A stretch of DNA of 64,000 nt from Spiroplasma turonicum (GTDB lineage Bacteria > Bacillota_I > Bacilli_A > Mycoplasmatales > Mycoplasmataceae): the NCBI RefSeq assembly GCF_001262715.1, contig NZ_CP012328.1:62001-126000 (forward strand), in the 5' to 3' direction. The notes beneath the pieces are model-generated. The model worked only from the letters and a program-made list of their open reading frames with translations, ran no database searches and was not told where the DNA came from. The translations under genes were made by a program, and so were the position numbers. This document shows positions 22,006 to 49,348 of this stretch, piece by piece (within the stretch, counting starts at the first letter, position 1; every line of letters begins with the position of its first letter).

Positions 22006-24129
22006 ATGACAAACACAAAAAATTTATCTAATGAAATATCATCAATAATATCAGTTGAAAATAATGATTTAAAAAATGAAAATGCTAACATGAGTGGAGA
22101 TACTCCAAGTGGAAAAATGATGAAATTTGCATCAATTACTTCAAAAGAGTATGCTTTAGATAATTTACTTGAAAAAAAAATCGCAGATCTACATAGAAAA
22201 TCACTTATACATATTCATGATTTAGATTATTATGCTACAAAATCTGCAACTTGTGTTCAATATAATCTTGATGAAATCTTTAAAAATGGTTTTTACACAA
22301 GAAATGGTTACATTAGAGAACCCAAATCTATTGCTGTATATGCAGAACTTGCTGCAATTGTATTTCAAACTGCTCAAAATGAGATGCATGGTGGACAAGC
22401 AATACCAGCATTTGACTTTTTTATGGCAAAAGGAGTAGCTAAGTCATTTATAAAAAGATTATTTGAAAACATTATTTCATATCTTGAAATCTTAGATGTA
22501 AACTTTGAAAGCGAAGTATTAAGAAATATAATTGAAAGTGCTGATTATATTGGATTGAACAACACAAATGTGGATAAACTATATGAAGAACTTAAATCAT
22601 TTGAAATTCCTAAAAAAGTTGTTCAAAAACTTGTTAATAATGCAAACAAAAAAGTTATATCTGACACAGACCAAGCTATGGAAGGTTTTATTTACAACCT
22701 AAATACCCAGCATTCTAGAGGTGGAAATCAAGTTGTTTTCTCATCAATAAATTTAGGTACTGATACTTCAAATGAAGGTAGACAAGTTATAAAATCTTTA
22801 TTTAAAGCACTTAGAAACGGATTAGGAAATGGTGAAACATCAATATTTCCAATAGTTATTTTTAAAGTTAAAGAAGGTATTAACTTTTCAGACTTAGATA
22901 AAAAAAGAGCTGACAATTTGAACCAAAACGATTGAGATAGTATAAATGACTGAAATACTAGAAACTTTGACTTATTTTTAGATGCTTTAAAAACAACAAG
23001 TACAAGATTATTTCCTAATTTTATGTTTTTAGATCAACCTTATAATAAACATGAAAAATGAGATATTAATGATGAAAATAGATGAATGTTTGAACCTGCA
23101 ACCATGGGATGTAGAACAAGAGTTTTTGAAAATATTAATGGTGAAAAAACAAGCGTTGGTAGAGGAAATCTTTCATTCACATCTATAAATTTACCTTATT
23201 TAGCTTTAGAACTTTTAGAAGAAAAAGGATTATTGATTAATTCTTATATTGATAGAGAAAGAACTAATAGAGATGAAATAAAGTTTTTATTTCTTAACAA
23301 AGTAAATAAAATTTCAAATGATATTTGTCAACAATTATATAATAGATATAAATTTCAAATATCTGCAATTGCAAAAGAATTCCCATTTTTAATGAAAAAT
23401 AATGTTTTAACTGGTGGAGAATTGTTAAAGGTAAATGACAGTGTTGAAGAAGTGTTTTTAAAAGGAACTCTAACAATTGGATTTGTAGGTTTAGCAGAAA
23501 GTTTAAAGGCACTTATTGGATTGCATCATGGAGAAAGTGATGAAGCACAAGATCTTGGTTTAGAAGTCGTTAAAGAAATGAATAAAGTTGCACAGGAATG
23601 AAAAGAAAAGACACACTTAAATTATGGAGTTATAGCAACTCCTGCTGAATCAGTCGCAGGTAGAATGGCTAAAATTACAAAATCAAGATTTGGTACAATA
23701 AATGAAGTAACATCAAGAGATTACTTTACAAATTCTAATCACGTTCCAGTTTATTACAATTTGACAGCATATAAAAAAATTATAATTGAAGCTGCCTACC
23801 ACGAACTTACTTTGGGTGGAAATATTAGTTATATTGAATTAGATGGAGAAGCTAAAAAAAATCTACATGCAATCTTATCTGTTGTTGATTTTATGAAAAA
23901 AAGTGGTATAAATTATGGTAGCTTAAACCATCCAGTTGATAGATGTAAAAAATGCCATTACACATCATTAATTCAATTAAATTGTCCAAAATGTGGTGCA
24001 AATGACATTTCAAGAACTAGAAGAATTACTGGTTATTTAGTTGGTGATTTAGATGGATGAAACTCAGGAAAACAAGCCGAAGAAAGCGAGAGAGTAAAAC
24101 ATTTAAAACAATATAATGAAAATTCTTAA
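22006..24129 (+). CDS. nrdD: Anaerobic (class III) ribonucleoside-triphosphate reductase
   Basis: NrdD makes deoxynucleotides without oxygen, using a glycyl radical installed by NrdG. The 707-residue chain has the central catalytic region ([38 protein letters not shown] with the radical-accepting Cys), a C-terminal zinc site (CKKC and CPKC), and the radical loop [13 protein letters not shown]. Unlike E. coli NrdD, the ~90-residue N-terminal ATP-cone is missing: only ~25 residues precede the [12 protein letters not shown] start of the core. TGA codons (22933, 22951, 23059, 23083, 23599, 24058) are Trp. nrdG overlaps its end by 14 bp. Formate is the usual reductant for NrdD enzymes of this kind, and pyruvate formate-lyase is encoded downstream. 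Confidence 0.95.
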
Positions 24130-24631
24130 AATATTTAAGGAAACAATAAGCGATGGACCTGGAATTAGATATTCAATATATGTTGCTGGCTGTTTACACG
24201 CTTGCAAAGGCTGCCATAATTTATTAAGTTGAAGCTTTAAACTAGGTAAGGATTTTGATCAAAATTATGAAAAGCAAATAATTTCTGACTTGAAATCAAA
24301 CCCACTTTTGAGCGGTGTTACATTTTCTGGTGGCGACCCAATGTTTAGTGCAAAAGAAGTTTATAAATTAATAAAAAGAATAAAAAAAGAAACGGGTCTT
24401 AACATCTGATTGTATACAGGATTTACCATTGAGGAAATTTATAATCAAAGAAATAATGGTGAAGAAGAACTATATAGATTTAAAATATTACATGAAATTG
24501 ATATTTTAGTTGATGGTAGATGAGTTCAAGAACTTTATGACCCTTCATTAGATTTTCGTGGTAGTAGCAATCAACGCTTAATTGACACAAAAAAATGATT
24601 GATAGATATAAAAAACAATAAAAACCTTTAA
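24116..24631 (+). CDS. nrdG: Anaerobic ribonucleotide reductase activating protein
   Basis: NrdG is the radical-SAM enzyme that puts the glycyl radical on NrdD. The 171-residue protein has the Fe-S triad Cys26-x3-Cys30-x2-Cys33 ([11 protein letters not shown]), the FSGGDP motif and the LYTGFT strand typical of the family. Four TGA codons encode Trp, so standard-code prediction would miss it. ATG 24116 lies inside nrdD, giving translational coupling. A weak terminator follows directly. Confidence 0.93.
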
Positions 24632-31775: not shown

Positions 31776-33833
31776 ATGAAATTTAAAGAATGAGAAGGAT
31801 TTCAACCTGGTGAATGGGTTGATGAAGTTGATGTTAGAGACTTCATTCAAAAAAATTATACACCTTACATAGGTGATGACTCTTTCTTGAAAGGTCCTAC
31901 TGAAAATACAAATAAGTTGTGAGCAGAAATAATGGAACTTACTAAGAAGGAAAGAGAAGCTGGAGGTGTTTTAGATGTTGATGATGATGTTCCATCAACA
32001 ATAACATCACATGCTGCGGGATATATAAAAAAAGAACTTGAAAAAGTTGTGGGATTACAAACAGAAAAACCTTTTAAAAGAGCTCTTATGCCATGGGGAG
32101 GAATTAACATGGCAGTTCAAGCAAATGAATCATATGGTTTCACAGTTTCAGATAGAGTAAAAGAAATTTTTACTAAGTATAGAAAAACACATAACCAAGG
32201 GGTTTTTGATGCATATACTCCAGATATGAGAAAAATCCGTAAAAGCCATATTGTTACAGGTTTACCAGACACATATGGAAGAGGTAGAATAATTGGAGAT
32301 TATAGAAGATTAGCTCTATATGGATCAGATTTTCTAATAGAGCAAAAAATTAAAGATGCTACATTATATGATGGTGAAATGACAGAGGACAAAATAAAGC
32401 TAAGAGAAGAAATATCTGAACAAATTTCAGCATTAAAAGATATAACTAAAATGGCTTCAAGTTATGGTTTTGATGTTTCTAAGCCAGCTAAAAACGCCTT
32501 AGAAGCATTTAACTTTACATATTTAGCATATTTAGCAGCTATTAAACAAAATAATGGAGCAGCAGAATCATTTGGTAGAACTGCTACATTTCTAGATATT
32601 TATATAGAAAGAGATTTCAAAAAAGGAATCCTTACCGAAGAAGAAGCTCAAGAGCTGGTTGATCATTTAGTTATGAAATTAAGAATAGTAAAATTTGCTC
32701 GTACTCCTGCATACAATCAAATTTTTTCAGGAGACCCTGTCTGAGCTACTGAATCAATTGGTGGAATTGGTTTGGATGGACGTACATTAGTTACAAAAAA
32801 CTGTTATAGATATATACATACTTTATCTAACATGGGACCTTCACCAGAACCCAATTTAACTATTTTATGATCAACAAATCTTCCAAATAATTTTAAAGAA
32901 TTTTGTTCAAAATACTCAATTATGTTTTCATCAATGCAATATGAAAATGATGACATAATGAGAACTACTCATGGAGATGATTATGCTATTGCTTGTTGTG
33001 TTTCACCAATGAAAGTTGGTAAACAAATGCAATTTTTTGGAGCAAGAACAAACTTGGCTAAAACATTATTGTATGCAATAAATGGTGGAATTGATGAGAT
33101 ATCTAAGGAACAAATAACACCAATTTTTGAACCAGTTCAAACAGGTGATGGTCCATTAGACTTTGCCGAAGTTTGAAAAAAACTTGATAATATGATGTCG
33201 TGGGTTGCAGATAAATATGTAAATACACTAAATGTTATTCACTACATGCACGATAAATATTATTATGAAAGTGCAGAGATGTGTTTCTATGATACAGAGG
33301 TTCATAGGTTCTTTGCTACAGGTATTGCAGGACTATCAGTAGTTGCTGATTCATTATCAGCAATCAAATATGCTAAGGTTTATCCAGTAAGAGACGAAAA
33401 TGGTATTGTAGTTTCTTATAAAACTGAAGGAGATTTCCCAAAATATGGAAACGATGATGATAGAGTTGATAACTTAGCTAAGGATATTGTTAAAATATTT
33501 ATGAATAAGGTAAGATCTCATAAAACATACAGGGGTTCTGAGGCAACAATGTCAGTCTTAACTATTACATCAAATGTAGTATATGGTAAATCAACAGGTG
33601 ATACACCATGTGGAAGAAGATATCCAGAGGCTTTCGCACCTGGAGCAAATCCTATGCATGGAAGAGATTGTTCAGGAGCTGTTGCTTCATTAGCATCTGT
33701 TTCAAAAATACCTTTCAAACATGCTGCTGATGGTATATCAAATACATTCTCAGTAATTCCTAATGCATTAGGAAAAGATGAAGATATGATAATACCAGGA
33801 GAAATAAAAATTTCAGGCAAATTGCCTAAATAG
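31776..33833 (+). CDS. pflB: Pyruvate formate-lyase catalytic core lacking the radical domain
   Basis: Pyruvate formate-lyase converts pyruvate and CoA to acetyl-CoA and formate with a glycyl radical. This 685-residue protein matches PflB from its N-terminus ([19 protein letters not shown]) through the catalytic Cys407-Cys408 pair (ACCVSP) to [11 protein letters not shown], but then ends with about 15 unrelated residues at TAG 33831. The final ~80 residues of a normal ~760-residue PflB, including RVSGYA with the radical Gly, are absent and encoded by the next gene. TGA codons at 31791, 31920, 32742, 32868 and 33174 are Trp. RBS AAAGGAGAG precedes ATG 31776. The core alone should be inactive; it needs the separate domain in trans. 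Confidence 0.95.
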
Positions 33834-33887: not shown

Positions 33888-34136
33888 ATGAAAACAAAAG
33901 CATCACAACAACAAATAGAAAACTTAGTAAATATGTTAGATGGATATATGGGTCATGGTGGACATCACTTAAATGTAAATGTTCTGGATAGAGAAATTTT
34001 AAGAGATGCACAAAAACACCCTGAAAGCTACCCTCAATTAACTATAAGGGTTTCAGGATATGCAGTTAACTTTGTTAAATTAACAAAAGAACAACAAGAA
34101 GAAGTTATATCAAGAACCTTCCATGAATCTATGTAA
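33888..34136 (+). CDS. grcA: Stand-alone glycyl-radical domain of pyruvate formate-lyase (GrcA-like)
   Basis: The 82-residue protein equals the C-terminal domain of Pfl[35 protein letters not shown] with the radical Gly57, and [19 protein letters not shown]. coli YfiD/GrcA is a similar spare radical domain that repairs oxygen-cleaved PFL. Here the LDGY segment resembles PflB itself more than YfiD, and the frame is the same as pflB (distance 2112 bp), which points to gene fission. The RBS is AAAGGAGAG before ATG 33888. It is the only radical domain seen for PFL in this window, so it should be an obligate subunit, activated by PflA. Confidence 0.93.
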
Positions 34137-35987: not shown

Positions 35988-37799
35988 ATGAAGTCAACAA
36001 AAAAAAGTATTTATCAGTATGAAATTACATTTAAGGACCCTTCAGTTTTCTTATTATTGATTGCTAGATTAATTGATTTATTAATAGCTTCATTGCCTAT
36101 GATTATATTTTATATATTTTATAAAATAAATGATTTAAAAAGTGCGCTAATAGTTTTTTCTATATACCACTTAATAATCTTCTTTTATTTTGTTATGATT
36201 CCTTATTTTTCTAGTGGTAACACAGTGGGTAAGTGGATATTTAATCTTAGATTAAAACTTGATAATAAAAATAAGTATTTTTCAAAACTTTTGCTTAGAG
36301 AGTTTTATTATTTATATATACCTTTTATTGTTCAAATATTAGCAAACATAATATCAATTGTAATTTTTAAATATTATAATCCTGGTGAAAATGATTCTAA
36401 GTTAAATGGGTGAACACTTTCAATTATAGTAAGAAATATTGGAAATATCTTTTTATCCGTTTGATTTTTTTATATAGCTATCACTGTTTATTTAAACAAA
36501 AATAATAGATCTGCAATTGATTCAAGACTTGGAATTAATGTAAAGTTATTGTCTAAGAAACTTATTATCAATAATAAAAACGATAAAAAAATAATAGAAG
36601 TAAATCATCCGGGGGTTTTTAATATGGAAGATGTTTTAAAAAAAGATTTAGATAATTTTAGTAATATAAATAGTTTAATTAATAGTTGGGTAGATAGTTC
36701 TTTTATAAATGGTGCTGTATTAATTATCAAAAAAAATAATAAAGTAGTATTAGACAAACAGTATGGTTACAATGATACTTTTAATAAAGTTAAAATGAAA
36801 AGAGATCAAATATTTAGAGGATACTCAATAACAAAAATTTTAACAGCAATAGCAACTTTAATGCTTGTTGAAAAAAACTTATTAAGCCTTGAAGATGATG
36901 TAAGTATTTATTTACCCCATTTTAAAAAATTAAAGGTTATTGATAATGGTATTATTAAACCTATAACAAACAAAATAAAAATAAAAAACTTATTAACAAT
37001 GACAAGTGGTTTAGCGTATGGAGGTAAAAAAACACATACTGAAAAGGAGACAGAAAAATTACTTATAAAATTGAGAAATAAAGATTTGACCTATGATGAA
37101 TTTATAGAAGAGTTATCAACAATCCCATTAGAGTTTGAACCTGGTACAAATTGAAAATATGGAATATCATATGATGTTTTGAGCGCTATAATTGAAAAAG
37201 TATCTAAACAAAGCTTTAGAGATTTTGTAAAACAATCAATCCTTGATAAACTTAATATGCAAGACACAGATTTTTATATTAAAGATAAAGATCGTGAAGC
37301 ACTTGTTTATAAATTAATAACAGAAAATGAAAACAATAAATTAGAGGAACTTAAAAACTTTAATTTTCTGTTACAAGATTTGTATAATCAACCGATTATA
37401 TCAATGGGAGGTTCTGGACTATTTACTACATGTCCAGATTATTTAAACTTTCTTAGTTTTTTACTAACAGGAAAAGACAACCAAGGTCAAACAATTATAT
37501 CTAATAAAATGCTTGCTTTAATGAGAAGCGATCAAGTATTAAGTTTGAAAAAGTATCTTTATATGAACATCAATGATGATTATTCATATGGTTATGGTGT
37601 GAGGGTTAGATTAAATAATTCTATTGAACCACTTACTACAATAGGTCAATTTGGATGAGATGGTTTATTAGGATCTAGTTGTATTATCGATCCAAAAAAT
37701 GAAGTAATTTTATGTTTTATGACAAGTGTTAAACAAAATAATGATACTATTGTTAGGGAACTACAAAAAAGTCTTTACGAAGATTTAAAAAAAGCTTAG
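35988..37799 (+). CDS. RDD membrane domain fused to a serine beta-lactamase-like hydrolase
   Basis: The frame is open for 603 residues. Residues ~18-190 look like an RDD family membrane domain (ARLIDLLIASLPM, GKWIFNLRL, then RSAIDSRLGINVKLL), with about four helices. From ~212 a serine hydrolase of the beta-lactamase/class C penicillin-binding type follows: YSITK (Ser280-x-x-Lys283 catalytic pair), LLTMTSGLAYG, YGISYDVLSAIIEK, and GQFGWDGLLGSSCIIDP in place of the KTG box. Mollicutes have no peptidoglycan, so an esterase or peptidase role is more likely. An internal ATG at 36624 has a G-rich stretch before it and could give a separate hydrolase; a fusion is favoured because no stop intervenes. 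Confidence 0.78.
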
Positions 37800-40348: not shown

Positions 40349-40369
40349 TCTAAAAAAGGAAGGTATATT

Positions 40370-41392
40370 ATGGCAAAACAAAAAAACAACTATTATAGTG
40401 AGTCTTTATCTCCTATTGAATATGCAATGAATAAATTTGAAGGTAAAATGCGCTCAGTTAATTGAAATGTTATTAATGATGACAAAGATTTAGAGGTTTG
40501 AAATAGAGCAACTCAAAACTTTTGATTACCAGAAAAGATACCAGTTTCTAATGATTTAGTGTCTTGAAAAACTTTAGAACCAAATTGACAACAACTAATC
40601 ACAAGAACTTTTACTGGGTTAACACTGCTTGATACAATTCAAGCTACAATTGGAGATATAGCACAAATCCCAAACTCATTAACAGACCATGAACAAGTTG
40701 TTTATGCCAACTTTTCTTTTATGGTAGCAGTACATGCAAGATCGTATGGTACAATATTTTCTACTTTATGTTCAAGTGAACAAATTGAAGAAGCGCATGA
40801 GTGAGTAATAAACACAAAAAGTCTTCAAGATAGAGCAAGAATATTGATCCCATATTATACAGGAGATGATGTTCTTAAATCTAAGGTCGCTGCAGCATTA
40901 ATGCCAGGATTTTTACTATATGGTGGATTTTATTTACCATTTTACCTTTCTGCAAGGGGCAAACTCTCAAATACATCAGACATAATAAGATTAATTCTGA
41001 GGGATAAGGTTATACATAACTATTACAGTGGATATAAATATCAAAAAAAAGTTCAAAAATTAGACGTTAAAAAACAAGAAGAAATGAAAAAATTTGTTTT
41101 TGATTTATTATATGAATTAATAGATCTTGAAAAAAAATATCTATTAGAACTTTATGATGGGTTTGGTATAGCTGATGATGCTATTAGATTCAGTGTTTAT
41201 AACGCAGGAAAGTTTTTACAAAACCTTGGTTATGAATCTCCATTTACAGAAGAAGAAACAAGAATTGATCCAGAAATTTTTACTCAATTATCAGCAAGAG
41301 CGGATGAAAACCATGATTTCTTTTCTGGTAATGGTTCTTCTTATATTATGGGTATAACAGAGGAAACAGAAGATGAAGATTGAGAGTTTTAA
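40370..41392 (+). CDS. nrdF: Class Ie (metal-free) ribonucleotide reductase radical subunit
   Basis: NrdF supplies the radical that starts deoxynucleotide formation by NrdE. The 340-residue protein aligns with class I R2 proteins, but three of the four carboxylate metal ligands after Asp88 are changed: FMVAVHARSYG has Val119 for Glu, ALMPGF has Pro179 for Glu, and RDKVIHN has Lys213 for Glu, while His122 and His216 remain. This Val/Pro/Lys set is the signature of class Ie enzymes studied in Mesoplasma florum, which use no metal and a DOPA radical on a Tyr; Tyr126 is present here at the expected place. TGA codons are Trp. nrdI and nrdE follow with gaps of 4 and 1 bp. Confidence 0.96.
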
Positions 41393-41396
41393 CTAA

Positions 41397-41858
41397 ATGC
41401 ATAATGACATAATATTAGTAGATGATGAAAATGTCACAAAGCCAACTGGAGAAGTTCATGTAGTTTATTTCTCTTCTATCTCTAATAATACTCATAGATT
41501 TATTGAAAAGCTAAATATAAATAATTCAAGAATTCCATATGATTTAAATGAGGAATTAAAAATTAATATGGACTATGTTTTAATTACACCCACATACGGT
41601 GGAGGCGGAAGCGACACAGCTGGTGCAGTACCAAAACAAGTTATTAAATTTTTGAATAATGAAAATAATAGAAGTTATTGCAGAGGTGTTGTTGCATCTG
41701 GAAATACTAATTTCGGAGACTCTTTTGCAATAGCAGGTCCAATCTTATCAAAAAAATTAAGTGTACCTCTTCTATACCAATTTGAACTTTTAGGTACATC
41801 ACATGATGTTGAAACATTAAAAAATATATTAATAAAGTTTTGAAACAAAGGGGATTAG
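41397..41858 (+). CDS. nrdI: Flavodoxin-like ribonucleotide reductase activator NrdI
   Basis: NrdI is an FMN protein that reduces oxygen to superoxide or similar to activate NrdF. In class Ie it is needed to oxidise the Tyr to the DOPA radical. The 153-residue protein has [17 protein letters not shown] (phosphate loop), [19 protein letters not shown] and [10 protein letters not shown], all typical. TGA 41841 is Trp. It lies between nrdF and nrdE, so all three should be made together. Confidence 0.95.
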
Positions 41859-41859
41859 T

Positions 41860-43998
41860 ATGAATAATAATATATTAGACAATGAAGAGTATATAAAACT
41901 AAACGCAAGATCAAAAATTTTTGTTAAAGATAAAGATAATTTTATATTAGATAAAGAAGCAGCTAAATTATATATTGAACAACATGTTAAGCCTAATTCA
42001 ATGACTTTTAATAGTATCGACGAAAGAATTAAATATTTGATTGAAAATGATTACTATGATGAAGAAGTAATAAATAAATATAAAATGAATGAAATTATAG
42101 AGTTAACAAATTATGCATATACTTTTAATCATTCATTTCCAAGTTTTATGGGTGCTTTAAAGTTCTATAATGCATATGCATTAAAAACTTTTGATGGAAA
42201 GCTTTATTTAGAAAATTACGAAGAAAGAGTTCTAATGAATGCTTTATTTTTAGCGGGCGGAGACTTTAACAAGGCTGAAGATTTATTAAAACAAATTATA
42301 TTAAATAGATATCAACCAGCAACTCCAACATTCCTAAATGCAGGAAAAAAACAAAGAGGAGAATATGTATCTTGTTATTTGCTTAGAGTTGAAGACAATA
42401 TGGAATCTATAGCAAGAGCAGTAACTACATCGCTTCAACTTTCTAAAAGAGGTGGAGGTGTTGCGCTTTGTTTAACAAATCTAAGAGAGTTTGGTGCACC
42501 AATTAAAAATATTGATAATCAAGCTACAGGTGTAATACCTGTAATGAAAATTTTAGAAGATTCATTTTCTTATGCAAATCAACTTGGTCAAAGACAAGGT
42601 GCAGGAGCTGTATATTTAAATGTTCATCACCCAGATATTATTTCATTTTTAGATACAAAAAGAGAAAATGCTGATGAAAAAATAAGAATTAAATCTCTAT
42701 CTTTAGGTGTTGTGGTACCAGATATTACATTTGAGTTAGCAAGAGAAAATAAAGAAATGGCTTTATTTAGTCCATATGATGTTGAAAAAGTTTATGGAAA
42801 AGCCTTTTCTGATATTTCTGTTACAAAAGAATATGAAAACATGGTAAATAACCCTAAAATTAAAAAAACATACATAAATGCAAGAAAATTATTCCAAACA
42901 ATTGCAGAACTTCATTTTGAAAGTGGATATCCATACTTGTTATTTGATGATACAGTTAATAATAGAAATGCACACAATGGAAGAATTGTTATGAGTAATT
43001 TATGTAGTGAAATTGTTCAAGTAAGTACTCCAAGTACATTCAAAGATGATCTAAGCTTTGTAAAACTAGGAGAAGATATTTGTTGTAATTTAGGAAGTTT
43101 AAATATAGCAAAAGTTATGGAAAGTGGAAAAGAGTTTAAAGATGTTGTGTTTGATGCTGTTTATTCTCTAGACTACGTTTCAAGAAATTCTGATTTAAGA
43201 AGTGCGCCATCTATTGAAAATGGTAATAGAAACAATCATGCTATAGGACTTGGTGCTATGAACTTACACGGTTTTTTAGCAACTAATGAAATATATTATA
43301 ATTCTGAAGAAGCTGTAGATTTTACAAATATGTTTTTTTATGTAGTGGCTTATAATGCTTTCAAAGCTTCAAATAAACTTGCTAAAAAATATGGAGCTTT
43401 TAATAATTTTAAAACCACTAAGTTTGCAGACGGTTCTTACTTTAACAAATACACTGAATGTGAAGAAAATAAATGAACTCCAAGTACAAAAAAAGTTAGA
43501 GAAATATTTAACAAGTATAATGTTGAAATACCTTCTAAGGATGATTGAATTAATCTTGTTGAAAAAATTAAATCTAATGGTATAGCAAATTCACATTTAT
43601 TAGCAGTAGCACCAACAGGTTCAATTAGTTACTTGTCTTCTTGTACACCAAGCCTTCAACCTGTAGTTGCACCAGTTGAAGTTAGAAAAGAAGGTAAATT
43701 AGGTAGAGTTTATGTTCCTGCTTACAATATAAATTTTGATAATATGGAATATTATGCCATGGATGCTTATACAGTTGGACCAGACTGAATCATTGATATA
43801 GCAGCAGCAGCACAACAACATGTAGATCAAGCAATATCTTTAACATTATTTATGACTGATAAAGCGACTACAAGAGATTTAAATAAAGCATATATTAGAG
43901 CATTCAAAAAAGGATGTGCCTCTATTTATTATGTAAGAGTTAGACAAGAAGTATTAGAAGATAGTGAAAACTATGATTGTGATGCTTGTGTAATTTAA
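41860..43998 (+). CDS. nrdE: Ribonucleoside-diphosphate reductase catalytic subunit
   Basis: NrdE reduces ribonucleoside diphosphates with the radical from NrdF. The 712-residue length fits class Ib-type R1. It has [22 protein letters not shown] (the first half ends at a redox Cys), [15 protein letters not shown] with the radical Cys region, [21 protein letters not shown], and a C-terminal CDAC pair for thioredoxin-like reduction. The first such Trp is TGA 43474. AAAGGGG before ATG 41860, only 1 bp after nrdI. A long terminator follows. Confidence 0.96.
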
Positions 43999-44079: not shown

Positions 44080-44829
44080 ATGATTGAAATCAAAAAAATA
44101 GCAAGAAAAATAGGTGGATTTAGTTTAAAAGAAGTAACTTTTAATATAAATGATGGTGATGTAGTTGCTTTTGTCGGTGATAACGGAGCAGGAAAAACCA
44201 CAACTATTAAAGCTTTATTTGGGGAGTTAAAAATTGATAGTGGGGAAATTTTAATAGATGGAGAAAGTATTTTTGCTAACAACAATCTAAGAAGAGTTGC
44301 ATTTTTCCCTGATTCAAACAATGTTCCTTTAAATATGAAGTTATCAGATTACTTAAAATACATTTGTGCTGCAAATGATTTATCAAAAGAAGAAACTGAA
44401 TTAAATACTGAGTTTGTATATAGACTATTAGAATTAAAACCATATAAAGATAAACTTATAAAAAAATTATCTTCTGGTTGAAAAAAGAAAGCTATAATGG
44501 CAAGTGTACTTATTAGAAAGCCTAAATACATTATTTTTGATGAGCCAACAGCAAATGTTGATGTAGAATCAAAACTTTATTTTATGGATATATTCAGATT
44601 ATTAGCAAAAGTCGGAATTACAATTCTTATAACTAGCCATATTATTGAAGAGTTACAAGAAGTGGCGAACCATTTAGTTTTAATAAAAAAAGGAACCATA
44701 GTTCACGATGAATTATTTGATAACAAAAAAGAAAAAATTATGGATGTTTATAAGAAACACATGAACAGTCCAATTAAGGATTTATCTATTTTAAATAAAC
44801 TATATAGTTCAAAAAGAAAGGAAAACTAG
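44080..44829 (+). CDS. ABC exporter ATP-binding protein (copy 1)
   Basis: The 249-residue ATPase has FVGDNGAGKTTTIKALFG (Walker A), the signature LSSGWKKKA (Trp from TGA 44479), FDEPTANVD (Walker B) and ITSHIIEEL (H-loop), the pattern of ABC-2 type exporters. It is paired with the permease that starts 1 bp after its stop. The copy at 46705 is clearly a paralogue with the same LRRVAFFPDSNNVP-like block after the P-loop. The substrate is unknown; drug, peptide or lipid export are all possible. Confidence 0.9.
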
Positions 44830-44830
44830 T

Positions 44831-46696
44831 ATGGATTCCAATTTATTAAAAAAAAGTAACAATCATAATTCTTATAAAAATTTTAACAATTTATATGCTA
44901 TAAACTTAAAAATAACTTTAAAGTCTCCTGGTATCTTAACAATGGGTATTATAATGGCAGCTCTATTATTTATACTATTTATTATTGAGTTTTCAGTAGA
45001 GTACTCAATAGAAGCAAGTTATTCTACATATAGAGATATTGTTTATATATTTATAAGCTTCACAGTATTGCTTTACACGCTTGTTTCAAGTTTTTATCTT
45101 TACAAAAAACAAAATAAAACAGGTATTCAAGCTATTGAATTACGAGCTGGATATACAGTATTAAAATCTTTCTTGATTAGACAATTCGTTCAATTAACTT
45201 CCTTTTTTATATATGTTTTACCAGTTATTATTTTGTCTTTTTCTTTTATTTACATTTTTAATATGACAATATCATTTTATTTTGGCACTGTTTTTTCACA
45301 AATATTTTTTATATTGTTTTTAGGTCTATTCTCAACAATAATTATAAATTCATTTGTATTATTGTTTAAAACCGCGATGTCAGCATGTTTATCAACAATT
45401 TTTATTATTATTTTATCTTTAGTACCTTTTATTTATAATTTATCTAAAATAATGAATAGCAATAAAGAAATACAAAGTTACATATCAACAAACTTAAAAT
45501 TAAAGTCAGGTTATGATTTTTATGATAATTTTAAAAATAATCAAGAAATAAATTATATTTTCAGTGATGAATCTAAAAATCAAAATTCTAGTACTCTTGA
45601 AAACATATATGAAAATTATAATAGTGCGTTATTTAATTTGGATAATGATAGTGTATATAATAGACTAAAAAGTGATGATATAAAATTATGAAGATTCAAT
45701 GAAAGAAATTCAAATGATCCTATTCTTGTTTATCCTATTAAAAAAGGTGCGGTTTTATTTAACTATATGTTAAAAAATGAAAATCAAGAAAATGATAACA
45801 AAAGTTGAACATTATTAAATAATACTAATATTGGAAAGCTATTATTAAATATTAATAAACAGCTATTGGATATAAATTTTGAAAGCTTACCAAAAAAATT
45901 TAGTAACATAAAACCAAATATTTATAACTCATATATATATTCAACAAACAATAAATTAAATGTTACATTAGAAAACTTATTAACAGCATTTAATAATTAT
46001 CTTCCCCAATATAATGATCTTGCAGAATTTATAAATAACTTTTATATAAGAAATTATGAATATTTAACAAATAATAATAGTGAAAACATTAAATTATTAG
46101 ATACCATAAGCACAAGTGGTGAAAATGGTAATAACAGTTGATTAAAATGAGATGAAGGTATAAAGAACATATCAGGTAGTCCGGACAAAGATATTGTTGA
46201 ACAAAATAATAATTATAAAAAAAAGTATGAAAAATTTCCTGAGTTATTGATTTTTAATTCAATATTATTAGGTTTATGAAAAAATAGTATGATTTTCAAT
46301 GTTTATGATAAGTTAGATGTAAGTTACTCATTAGATTCTTATGAAAATTTTAAACAAAAGTTCTCAGGAGCTTCTACAAACATTATTTTACATTTCCCAA
46401 TGATGTTTAGTGGTGTTTTTATGAACCCAGTCCAAGATGATAGTTTAAGCACTATAGCTACTTTATCGGTGTCAAAACCATCAGCCTATATAAGTAATAT
46501 TTTCAGTTTTGAAAAATATGCTCCAGAAAACAAAATTAATACAAATAATCCCGCTCTTGAACCAATATATAAAAATAGTAATTTAGAATATTCTTCTTAC
46601 TTTATAAAAGGGCTAGCATTCTTTATTTATTTATTACTTGTATCACCAATAGTTTATTTTAACTATATTTTATTTAAAAGAAAGGCAAAAATTTAG
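44831..46696 (+). CDS. ABC exporter permease with large extracytoplasmic domain (copy 1)
   Basis: The 621-residue protein has an N-terminal soluble stretch, about six hydrophobic helices in residues 30-215 (for example ILTMGIIMAALLFILFII and VFSQIFFILFLGLFSTIII), then a large hydrophilic Asn/Ser/Lys-rich region (220-580) and a last helix (GLAFFIYLLLVSPIVYF). This layout suggests an exporter with a big outer domain. Low-complexity content makes a family call unsafe. Trp codons are TGA (45689, 45806, 46139). It is encoded right after its ATPase. Confidence 0.78.
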
Positions 46697-46704
46697 GTAT
46701 ATAT

Positions 46705-47466
46705 ATGATTGAACTTAAAAACATTACTAGAGAAGTCGGTGGATTCTTACTAAATAAGGTTAGTTTTAAAATAAAAAAAGGTTCAGTTGTTGCATTTGTT
46801 GGCGATAATGGTGCCGGAAAGACAACAACTATTAAAGCTATGTTTGGCGAACTTAATTTGGATAGTGGTTCGATAACAATTGATGGTGAAGATATTTTTA
46901 AAAATAATAATCTCAGAAAAGTTGCATTTTTCCCTGATTCAAATAATGTTCCAATGGAATTGTCTTTGAGAGATTATGTTAATTATTTGTGTTCAGTTAA
47001 TGGAATGAGTAAAAAAGAAATTAAAAATAATTCAAAAGAAGTTTTTAAAATGTTGGGTTTAGAAAAGTTTGTAAATAAAAGATTGGGCCAATTGAGTGCG
47101 GGATGGAAAAAACGTGCTATAATGGCAAGTATTTTGGTTAGAACCCCAGATTACATAATACTTGATGAACCCACAGCAAATGTTGATGTAGAAGCTAAAC
47201 TATCATTTATGAATATATTACATGAGTTAAGAAATATAGGAGTTACAATTTTAATTACTAGTCATATCCTAGAAGAATTACAAGAAATGGCAAATTATTT
47301 AGTTTTAATAAATGAAGGCCAAATTGTTTATGAAAGTGATTTTGATAACAAGAAAGAAAGCATTGCAGATATATATAAAAAATTTAGACTAAATAAAGTT
47401 GATAAAGAAAAAATTCTTAAAGAACTTTATCAAAATGAAGGAGCAAGTACTAATGAGTTCAAATAA
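46705..47466 (+). CDS. ABC exporter ATP-binding protein (copy 2)
   Basis: The 253-residue ATPase parallels the copy at 44080 throughout: FVGDNGAGKTTTIKAMFG, VAFFPDSNNVPMEL, LSAGWKKRA (here Trp is TGG) and LDEPTANVDVE. This is the mark of a tandem duplication of ATPase plus permease. It overlaps the next permease by 14 bp. Substrate unknown. The two copies could form one heteromeric exporter or two separate ones. Confidence 0.9.
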   Translation: MIELKNITREVGGFLLNKVSFKIKKGSVVAFVGDNGAGKTTTIKAMFGELNLDSGSITIDGEDIFKNNNLRKVAFFPDSNNVPMELSLRDYVNYLCSVNGMSKKEIKNNSKEVFKMLGLEKFVNKRLGQLSAGWKKRAIMASILVRTPDYIILDEPTANVDVEAKLSFMNILHELRNIGVTILITSHILEELQEMANYLVLINEGQIVYESDFDNKKESIADIYKKFRLNKVDKEKILKELYQNEGASTNEFK

Positions 47467-49348
47467 TGGATTAGAAAATAAGGAAATTAAAATTCCTAAA
47501 AAAAATAAAAATAGAACTAAATCAAAAATTAGAACTTTATTCTTAATAAATTTAAAGAGAGTTTATTTTAATAAAGGTATAATTGCAATGGCTTGTGTTT
47601 TTTTGATTTTATCATTTATATTTGCACTCTCATTACCGACTACTGTCGATAGTTCGTTTTTTATTGGTTTTACAATTCAGTTTTTTTTATTAGTTTTCTT
47701 TTATATTGTTTTTATAACTCTGTTAATTAATGACTTGTTCAAAAGACAAATGATTGATGGAGTTCAAATTATAGAAATTCGATCTGGAATTAAAATTCAT
47801 AATTCTTATATGATGAGATATTTATTATATTTAACAGTTTCATTTGTAATATCTACATTAAATCTTATTATAAATATAATATTCAAATCAGGTGTGATGT
47901 TTTCAAATAATGAAGTTTCGAAATTAATATGGAGTACAATATTGTTCTTTTTCTTATTTACAATTATATGAGCCCCAATTATTATCTCTATTAATGTCTC
48001 AGTAAGTGTAGCTGGATCAATTGTTCTAAATTTATTCTTAGGAACAATTCTAATTTTTTCACAATTTATATCAGTAATAGCTTTTCAAATAGCAGTAAAC
48101 AACAATTTTAATGATGTGAAATTATCATCATTAACTGCTTGAACTGCAAAAACAGATATTTCTTATTCAATGTATGAAAATTTTAAAAATGATGGTTCAA
48201 TATCTAAATGATATGAGGATGAATATTTTATTGATACTATAAATAAAAACCTAGAAAATATTTATTCAAAAGTTGAAAATGACGAACAAAATCAAAATTA
48301 TAAATTCTCCTTTAATAATTGAAGTGAGCTTCATAATATTCAAAATAATAAGTTTTCTTCAAATAGTCAAAACATAAGTGCTGAAACTGCTTTGGGAGAA
48401 TCTTTAATTGGATTTAGAACAAATTATGCAATTAAAATAGATAACGAAGGAAAACCAATACATATTCTAGATAATACAAAGCTATTTATCTTATTTGATA
48501 AAATGTTTAATTTATTAAATGATAATTTTATTAGTAACGAATCAAGAGCACCTTATAATAACGCTGATAAAAAAACGTTTTTATCTGAAGAAAATGATAT
48601 AACTAGTTATATTGATATATCAAATTTAATAGACTGATTTATAAATCAAAATGAACTTAGGGAGTATAAAGAACTTTTGATTTGAGCAAATAAAGAATAT
48701 AACAAATATGCTACATCATTTGCAGCAGCTTCTAGTTCTAATTACTACTCATCAGAAATATACTACTTCCTACAAACTTATTCAAAAAATTATTTACTAT
48801 CTAATTGAAAAAAGAATATACCATATGATACAAATGATACAAAATTAATAAATTATAATAATAATGTTGATAAAGTTTATAATAGATACCCTGAATTAAT
48901 ATTAATAAATTGATTTATAATTAGTAATTATATAAATGGTATAAAAGCAGATATTACTACTCAAGAAAACACAACTTTTAAATCTTATTTAAATAAACTG
49001 GATAATAAAGCTATTAGCTCAACTTCTATGGTTTTATATAATCCGTTTAGTCATTTCTGAAATTTATATTTCAACTCATTTACTGAAGCAATACCAAATG
49101 ATTTATTTAACTCTTCATTAAATGATGTTTGACAAGGTCCAAGAAGTTCAATAAAAAACTTCAGCGAATTAGAAAAATATAATTCAAAAAGTAGAATTGA
49201 TGATAAATTATACCCTATTTATAAAGAGTATAAACCAAATTATACATTAACATTTAGCATTACTGGAGCTTATGCATTTTACATATTATTTTCTATTTTA
49301 ATAACTTTTATATCATTTTTAATATTTAGAAAGGTATCAAGAATCTAA
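47453..49348 (+). CDS. ABC exporter permease with large extracytoplasmic domain (copy 2)
   Basis: The 631-residue protein repeats the design of copy 1: a first helix after KRVYFNKG (about 45-65), further helices to ~235, a hydrophilic outer domain of about 350 residues, and one last helix (GAYAFYILFSILITFISFLIF). ATG 47453 lies inside the ATPase gene after GAAGGAG; the in-frame TTG/ATG upstream has no RBS. In-frame TGA codons are Trp. It ends with an intrinsic terminator that closes the four-gene exporter block. Confidence 0.78.

Follow-up and report, generated by a model that had tools for sequence, protein, structure and literature searches.

The nrdFIE operon of Spiroplasma turonicum encodes a class Ie (VPK) ribonucleotide reductase R2 subunit

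The window analyzed here is a 64,000-nucleotide stretch of the Spiroplasma turonicum genome, a single contig of 1,261,374 bases with an estimated completeness of 99.84%, in which TGA encodes tryptophan (genetic code 4). On the forward strand, nrdF occupies positions 40370–41392, where table 4 gives an open frame of 340 aa with seven TGA codons read as Trp; table 11 translation breaks this frame. The product matches PF00268 (267 bits) and the NCBIfam model NF010572 (623 bits), and the gene is preceded by AAGGAAGG (40356–40363, same strand), likely its ribosome-binding site. Two further genes follow on the same strand in the order nrdF-nrdI-nrdE. Starting 4 bases past nrdF, nrdI (41397–41858) encodes a flavodoxin-like activator of 153 aa that scores over the cut-offs of PF07972 and TIGR00333 and has the NrdI structure 6ebq as its best PDB relative, which agrees with the earlier note that nrdI is kept directly beside nrdF. 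The R1 catalytic subunit is encoded by nrdE (41860–43998; 712 aa; TIGR04170, 997 bits, well above the cut-off). Aligned to Salmonella NrdE (1pem), it has Cys172, Cys382, Cys409, a C-terminal Cys-x-x-Cys (Cys707/Cys710) and a Tyr690-Tyr691 pair, and judging from its sequence it carries the cysteines and tyrosine pair expected in an active R1. Comparison of the glycine-rich loop of NrdI across homologues revealed nothing remarkable, and promoter and terminator scans gave no signal above chance. Elsewhere in the window, inspection by eye picked out a 603-aa ORF (35988–37799) whose translation apparently combines an RDD-like membrane portion with a beta-lactamase/serine-hydrolase-like one, and, downstream of nrdE (44080–49348), two tandem units of an ABC ATPase plus a large membrane protein that look like a duplication.

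The class Ib R2 site is built from three Glu, one Asp and two His ligands. In NrdF, translation and homologue alignment place Val119 (codon at 40724–40726, forward strand as for all codons given here), Pro179 (40904–40906) and Lys213 (41006–41008) at the three Glu positions, the Val/Pro/Lys (VPK) replacement that characterizes this type of class Ie enzyme. Asp88, His122, His216 and the radical-site Tyr126 (40745–40747) are retained. These substitutions, their spacing and the retained residues had all been proposed in the earlier note: the Val/Pro/Lys replacement is borne out by the table 4 translation and the alignment, the intervals of 60 positions from Val119 to Pro179 and 34 from Pro179 to Lys213 hold in the protein, and the four conserved residues stand at the numbers it gave. 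In class Ic R2 proteins, Phe or another residue replaces the radical tyrosine and the metal ligands are retained; NrdF does not fit this class, as Tyr126 is present and metal ligands are lost. The class Ib NrdF proteins of Salmonella (1r2f) and E. coli (3n37) share with it the fold, the NrdI and NrdE partners, Asp88, both histidines and the tyrosine, but they have the three Glu ligands that are absent here, and NrdF is therefore not a class Ib member.

The best PDB match of NrdF is the class Ie (VPK) R2e of Mesoplasma florum (6gp2, 6gp3, 8bt3, 8bt4). Its alignment to 6gp2 is gapless over residues 1–340 with the same numbering, and 291 of the 340 residues (86%) are identical; the 49 substitutions spare every active-site and radical-path residue checked. 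We compared 120 homologous loci (48 VPK, 71 with three Glu and one QSK) at 14 positions, comprising the residues of the published mechanism (W52, L84, D88, V119, H122, Y126, L183, F187, I209, R211, D212 and K213; PMC8902622) together with P179 and H216. All 14 are invariant in the 48 VPK homologues, and all 71 class Ib homologues have Glu at each of the three ligand positions. A class Ib R2 still using a dimanganese or diiron site, with its Glu ligands displaced in the alignment, is accordingly very improbable. Although the NCBIfam models label NrdF as class 1b NrdF and the NrdI and NrdE partners are common to both classes, the alignment is ungapped, Val, Pro and Lys lie opposite Glu in 71/71 class Ib sequences so that ligands shifted by misalignment are excluded, and NrdF shares 86% of its residues with a protein whose lack of metal has been demonstrated (PMC7615503). 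The alignment to class Ie and class Ib proteins for which the earlier note had called thus left the Glu ligands unshifted.

In the R2 tree, a single branch with 100/100 support separates the 46 VPK rows from the QSK and EEE rows; NrdF sits among the VPK rows, and the lone QSK row falls outside their branch. The named closest relatives include Spiroplasma sp. AdecLV25b, Mesoplasma grammopterae and a Spiroplasma of Danaus, and the organism is taken here as a Spiroplasma-like entomoplasmatalean (order Entomoplasmatales). Comparisons of nrdF between neighbors give dN of 0.03–0.10 and dS of about 0.9–2.1, the latter partly saturated, a pattern of strong purifying selection on nrdF. Because this selection is accompanied by the conservation of 14 residues in 48/48 VPK homologues, the VPK pattern is not a product of chance. 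The loss of three catalytic ligands and the presence of an anaerobic reductase in the same genome could instead suggest a decaying, inactive R2 in a cell that relies on class III NrdD and salvage. This reading is highly unlikely, however, given that dN is far below dS, that the active-site residues are identical in all 48 VPK homologues, that the nrdFIE operon is intact and that six genomes of the same genus have nrdF without nrdD. Recruitment of an R2-like protein to another function, such as an R2lox-type oxidase, would account for the altered metal site, yet it is extremely improbable for a protein that keeps Tyr325 and the C-terminal tail, has nrdI and nrdE in its operon and shares 86% identity with a demonstrated RNR subunit.

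Gene order points the same way as sequence and tree. The order nrdF-nrdI-nrdE, which occurs in virtually all VPK genomes and serves as a mark of the type (PMC11846895), is found here, and nrdI and nrdE lie downstream on the same strand in 48/48 VPK loci. As sequence, gene order and tree agree, the class Ie VPK assignment made in the earlier note is supported, and the nrdF product is almost certainly the R2 (beta) subunit of a class Ie (VPK) RNR, the sole class I RNR of this Spiroplasma-like mollicute. A profile search with PF00268 found nrdF alone in this 99.8% complete genome, so there is no metal-binding R2 able to replace its product. The family was already known, as the earlier note recognized, from the R2e described and solved in M. 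florum. Both species have the nrdFIE order of the VPK group, while the S. turonicum genome adds class III nrdDG; NrdD was not found in the seven genomes of group g7, within which Mesoplasma grammopterae falls in the R2 tree. The class Ie VPK proteins of the Aerococcus/Streptococcus type (6ebo, 7mmp) likewise have the VPK site and a NrdI partner (6ebq), but are more distant from NrdF (about 596 bits versus 677 for M. florum R2e). The class Ie QSK R2 of Gardnerella (Bifidobacterium) vaginalis is also metal-free, with DOPA and use of NrdI, and is also paired with a class III RNR (PMC11846895), but differs in its Gln, Ser and Lys residues and its nrdHIEF order.

From M. florum, Aerococcus and Streptococcus we infer that S. 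turonicum NrdF is metal-free and carries a DOPA radical. In the mechanism drawn from studied homologues (PMC7615503, PMC8463856, PMC11846895, PMC8902622), reduced NrdI and O2 would generate superoxide (or HO2), which would pass through a channel to Tyr126, the residue at which DOPA is expected from its role in M. florum (PMC7615503). Tyr126 would be hydroxylated to DOPA and then oxidized to a stable DOPA radical without any metal. This radical would be hydrogen-bonded to Asp88, and Asp88 and Lys213 would tune and gate it, in line with the role proposed for Lys213 (PMC8902622). The radical path would then run through Lys213, His122, Asp212 and Trp52 to the C-terminal Tyr325, assigned as the tail tyrosine by its position in the C-terminal tail, and on through the Tyr690-Tyr691 pair to the thiyl cysteine of NrdE. 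Neither Nramp-type Mn import nor Fe/Mn superoxide dismutase was found in the host genome, negative results of little weight since Nramp was the one transporter family covered.

Without oxygen, NrdDG would take over from the class Ie enzyme. The anaerobic class III reductase is encoded by nrdD (22006–24129, forward strand; 707 aa), which scores over the TIGR02487 cut-off and has the glycyl-radical motif RRITGY and a CxxC...CxxC near its C-terminus. Its radical-SAM activase is encoded on the same strand by nrdG (24116–24631; TIGR02491, 175.5 bits, above the cut-off), which has the CxxxCxxC motif CLHACKGC, and the two motifs together identify a class III system. NrdG requires FeS assembly, and a Suf-type FeS assembly system is encoded in the genome. 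The possibility that NrdDG is a misread pyruvate formate-lyase (PFL) and PflA pair was rejected, as nrdD and nrdG are separate, real genes and PFL and PflA are additional ones. The match of NrdD starts at position 92 of PRK07111, leaving no N-terminal ATP cone, so that dATP would not be expected to shut off its overall activity.

Among 60 genomes of the family searched for class I R2 and NrdD, R2 was found in 40 as a single match each, and all 40 are VPK. NrdD matches occur in 19 of the 60: 14 of the 20 genomes of the same genus, G016, G019 (broken) and three genomes of g9. R2e and an intact-looking nrdD occur together in 15 of the 40 R2e genomes. The earlier note had considered the pairing of class Ie with class III NrdDG in one genome worth noting; the pairing is real but ordinary, being common in both the genus (14/20) and the R2e genomes of the family (15/40). 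Gardnerella also combines class Ie (QSK) with class III, and in a survey of VPK enzymes 65 of 128 species rely on class Ie alone (PMC11846895). Other combinations were observed in the family. The three g9 genomes (G047, G048 and G049), nearly complete, have NrdD and no class I R2 match, and may make deoxynucleotides only without oxygen. In G019 (C1:136562-138460), nrdD is broken by many TAA/TAG stops and the VPK nrdF is intact, apparently a class III loss in progress. In genus g8, 11 of 14 genomes have no class I R2 and NrdD was found in none of these 11; with classes I and III as the two covered by the search, these genomes may depend on deoxynucleoside salvage. The regulator NrdR was not found in any of the 60 family genomes.

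A second glycyl radical enzyme in the window is divided between two genes. The PFL gene at 31776–33833 covers positions 1–667 of the 744 in TIGR01255, followed by a new tail, and the 82-aa GrcA-like ORF at 33888–34136, preceded by the ribosome-binding-like AAAAGGAGAG, covers positions 661–744 with the glycyl-radical motif RVSGY; NCBIfam names this small protein GrcA3. A family search found no full-length PFL in the genome. All genomes of the family that have a PFL show the split, the replacement tail is conserved wherever it was read in the family, and in three genomes (G016, G023 and G024) the truncated PFL and the small gene lie about 97–470 kb apart. Both split and contiguous forms exist in the wider order, the split one in many of its genomes. 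Nine genomes of family f3 (L163–L171) keep the glycyl-radical region of PFL contiguous (model positions 1–106) and others of the same genus-level group have the split form, so that the split either emerged or was lost again within the order. The 82-aa protein and the truncated PFL seem to be the two obligatory parts of one glycyl radical enzyme, an arrangement that looks more unusual than the class Ie finding. An engineered truncated PFL with YfiD works in E. coli, but more poorly (PMC8683613), while S. turonicum would have no form other than the two-part enzyme. One mollicute paper treats the small glycyl-radical protein as a spare part (PMC5476646), and we found no publication describing the arrangement as a genome-encoded split.

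It is conceivable, though rather unlikely, that the radical enzymes of this mollicute lineage form one oxygen-switching set, made up of an O2-needing metal-free R2e, an NrdDG that is sensitive to O2 and lacks an ATP cone, and a split PFL, with no NrdR coordinating them. In such a set the PFL glycyl-radical domain would be a separate, replaceable protein, and, if this were true, oxygen and cofactor supply, and not metal or NrdR, would govern the switch.

NrdF itself is a new but ordinary member of the already known class Ie (VPK), to which it adds a clear and well-supported case; as this family has been published along with its structure and radical, no concept is changed. Every R2-bearing genome of the bacterial family (40/40) has the VPK enzyme, with or without class III, and these organisms are therefore predicted to make DNA precursors aerobically with an R2 that requires no Mn and no Fe.
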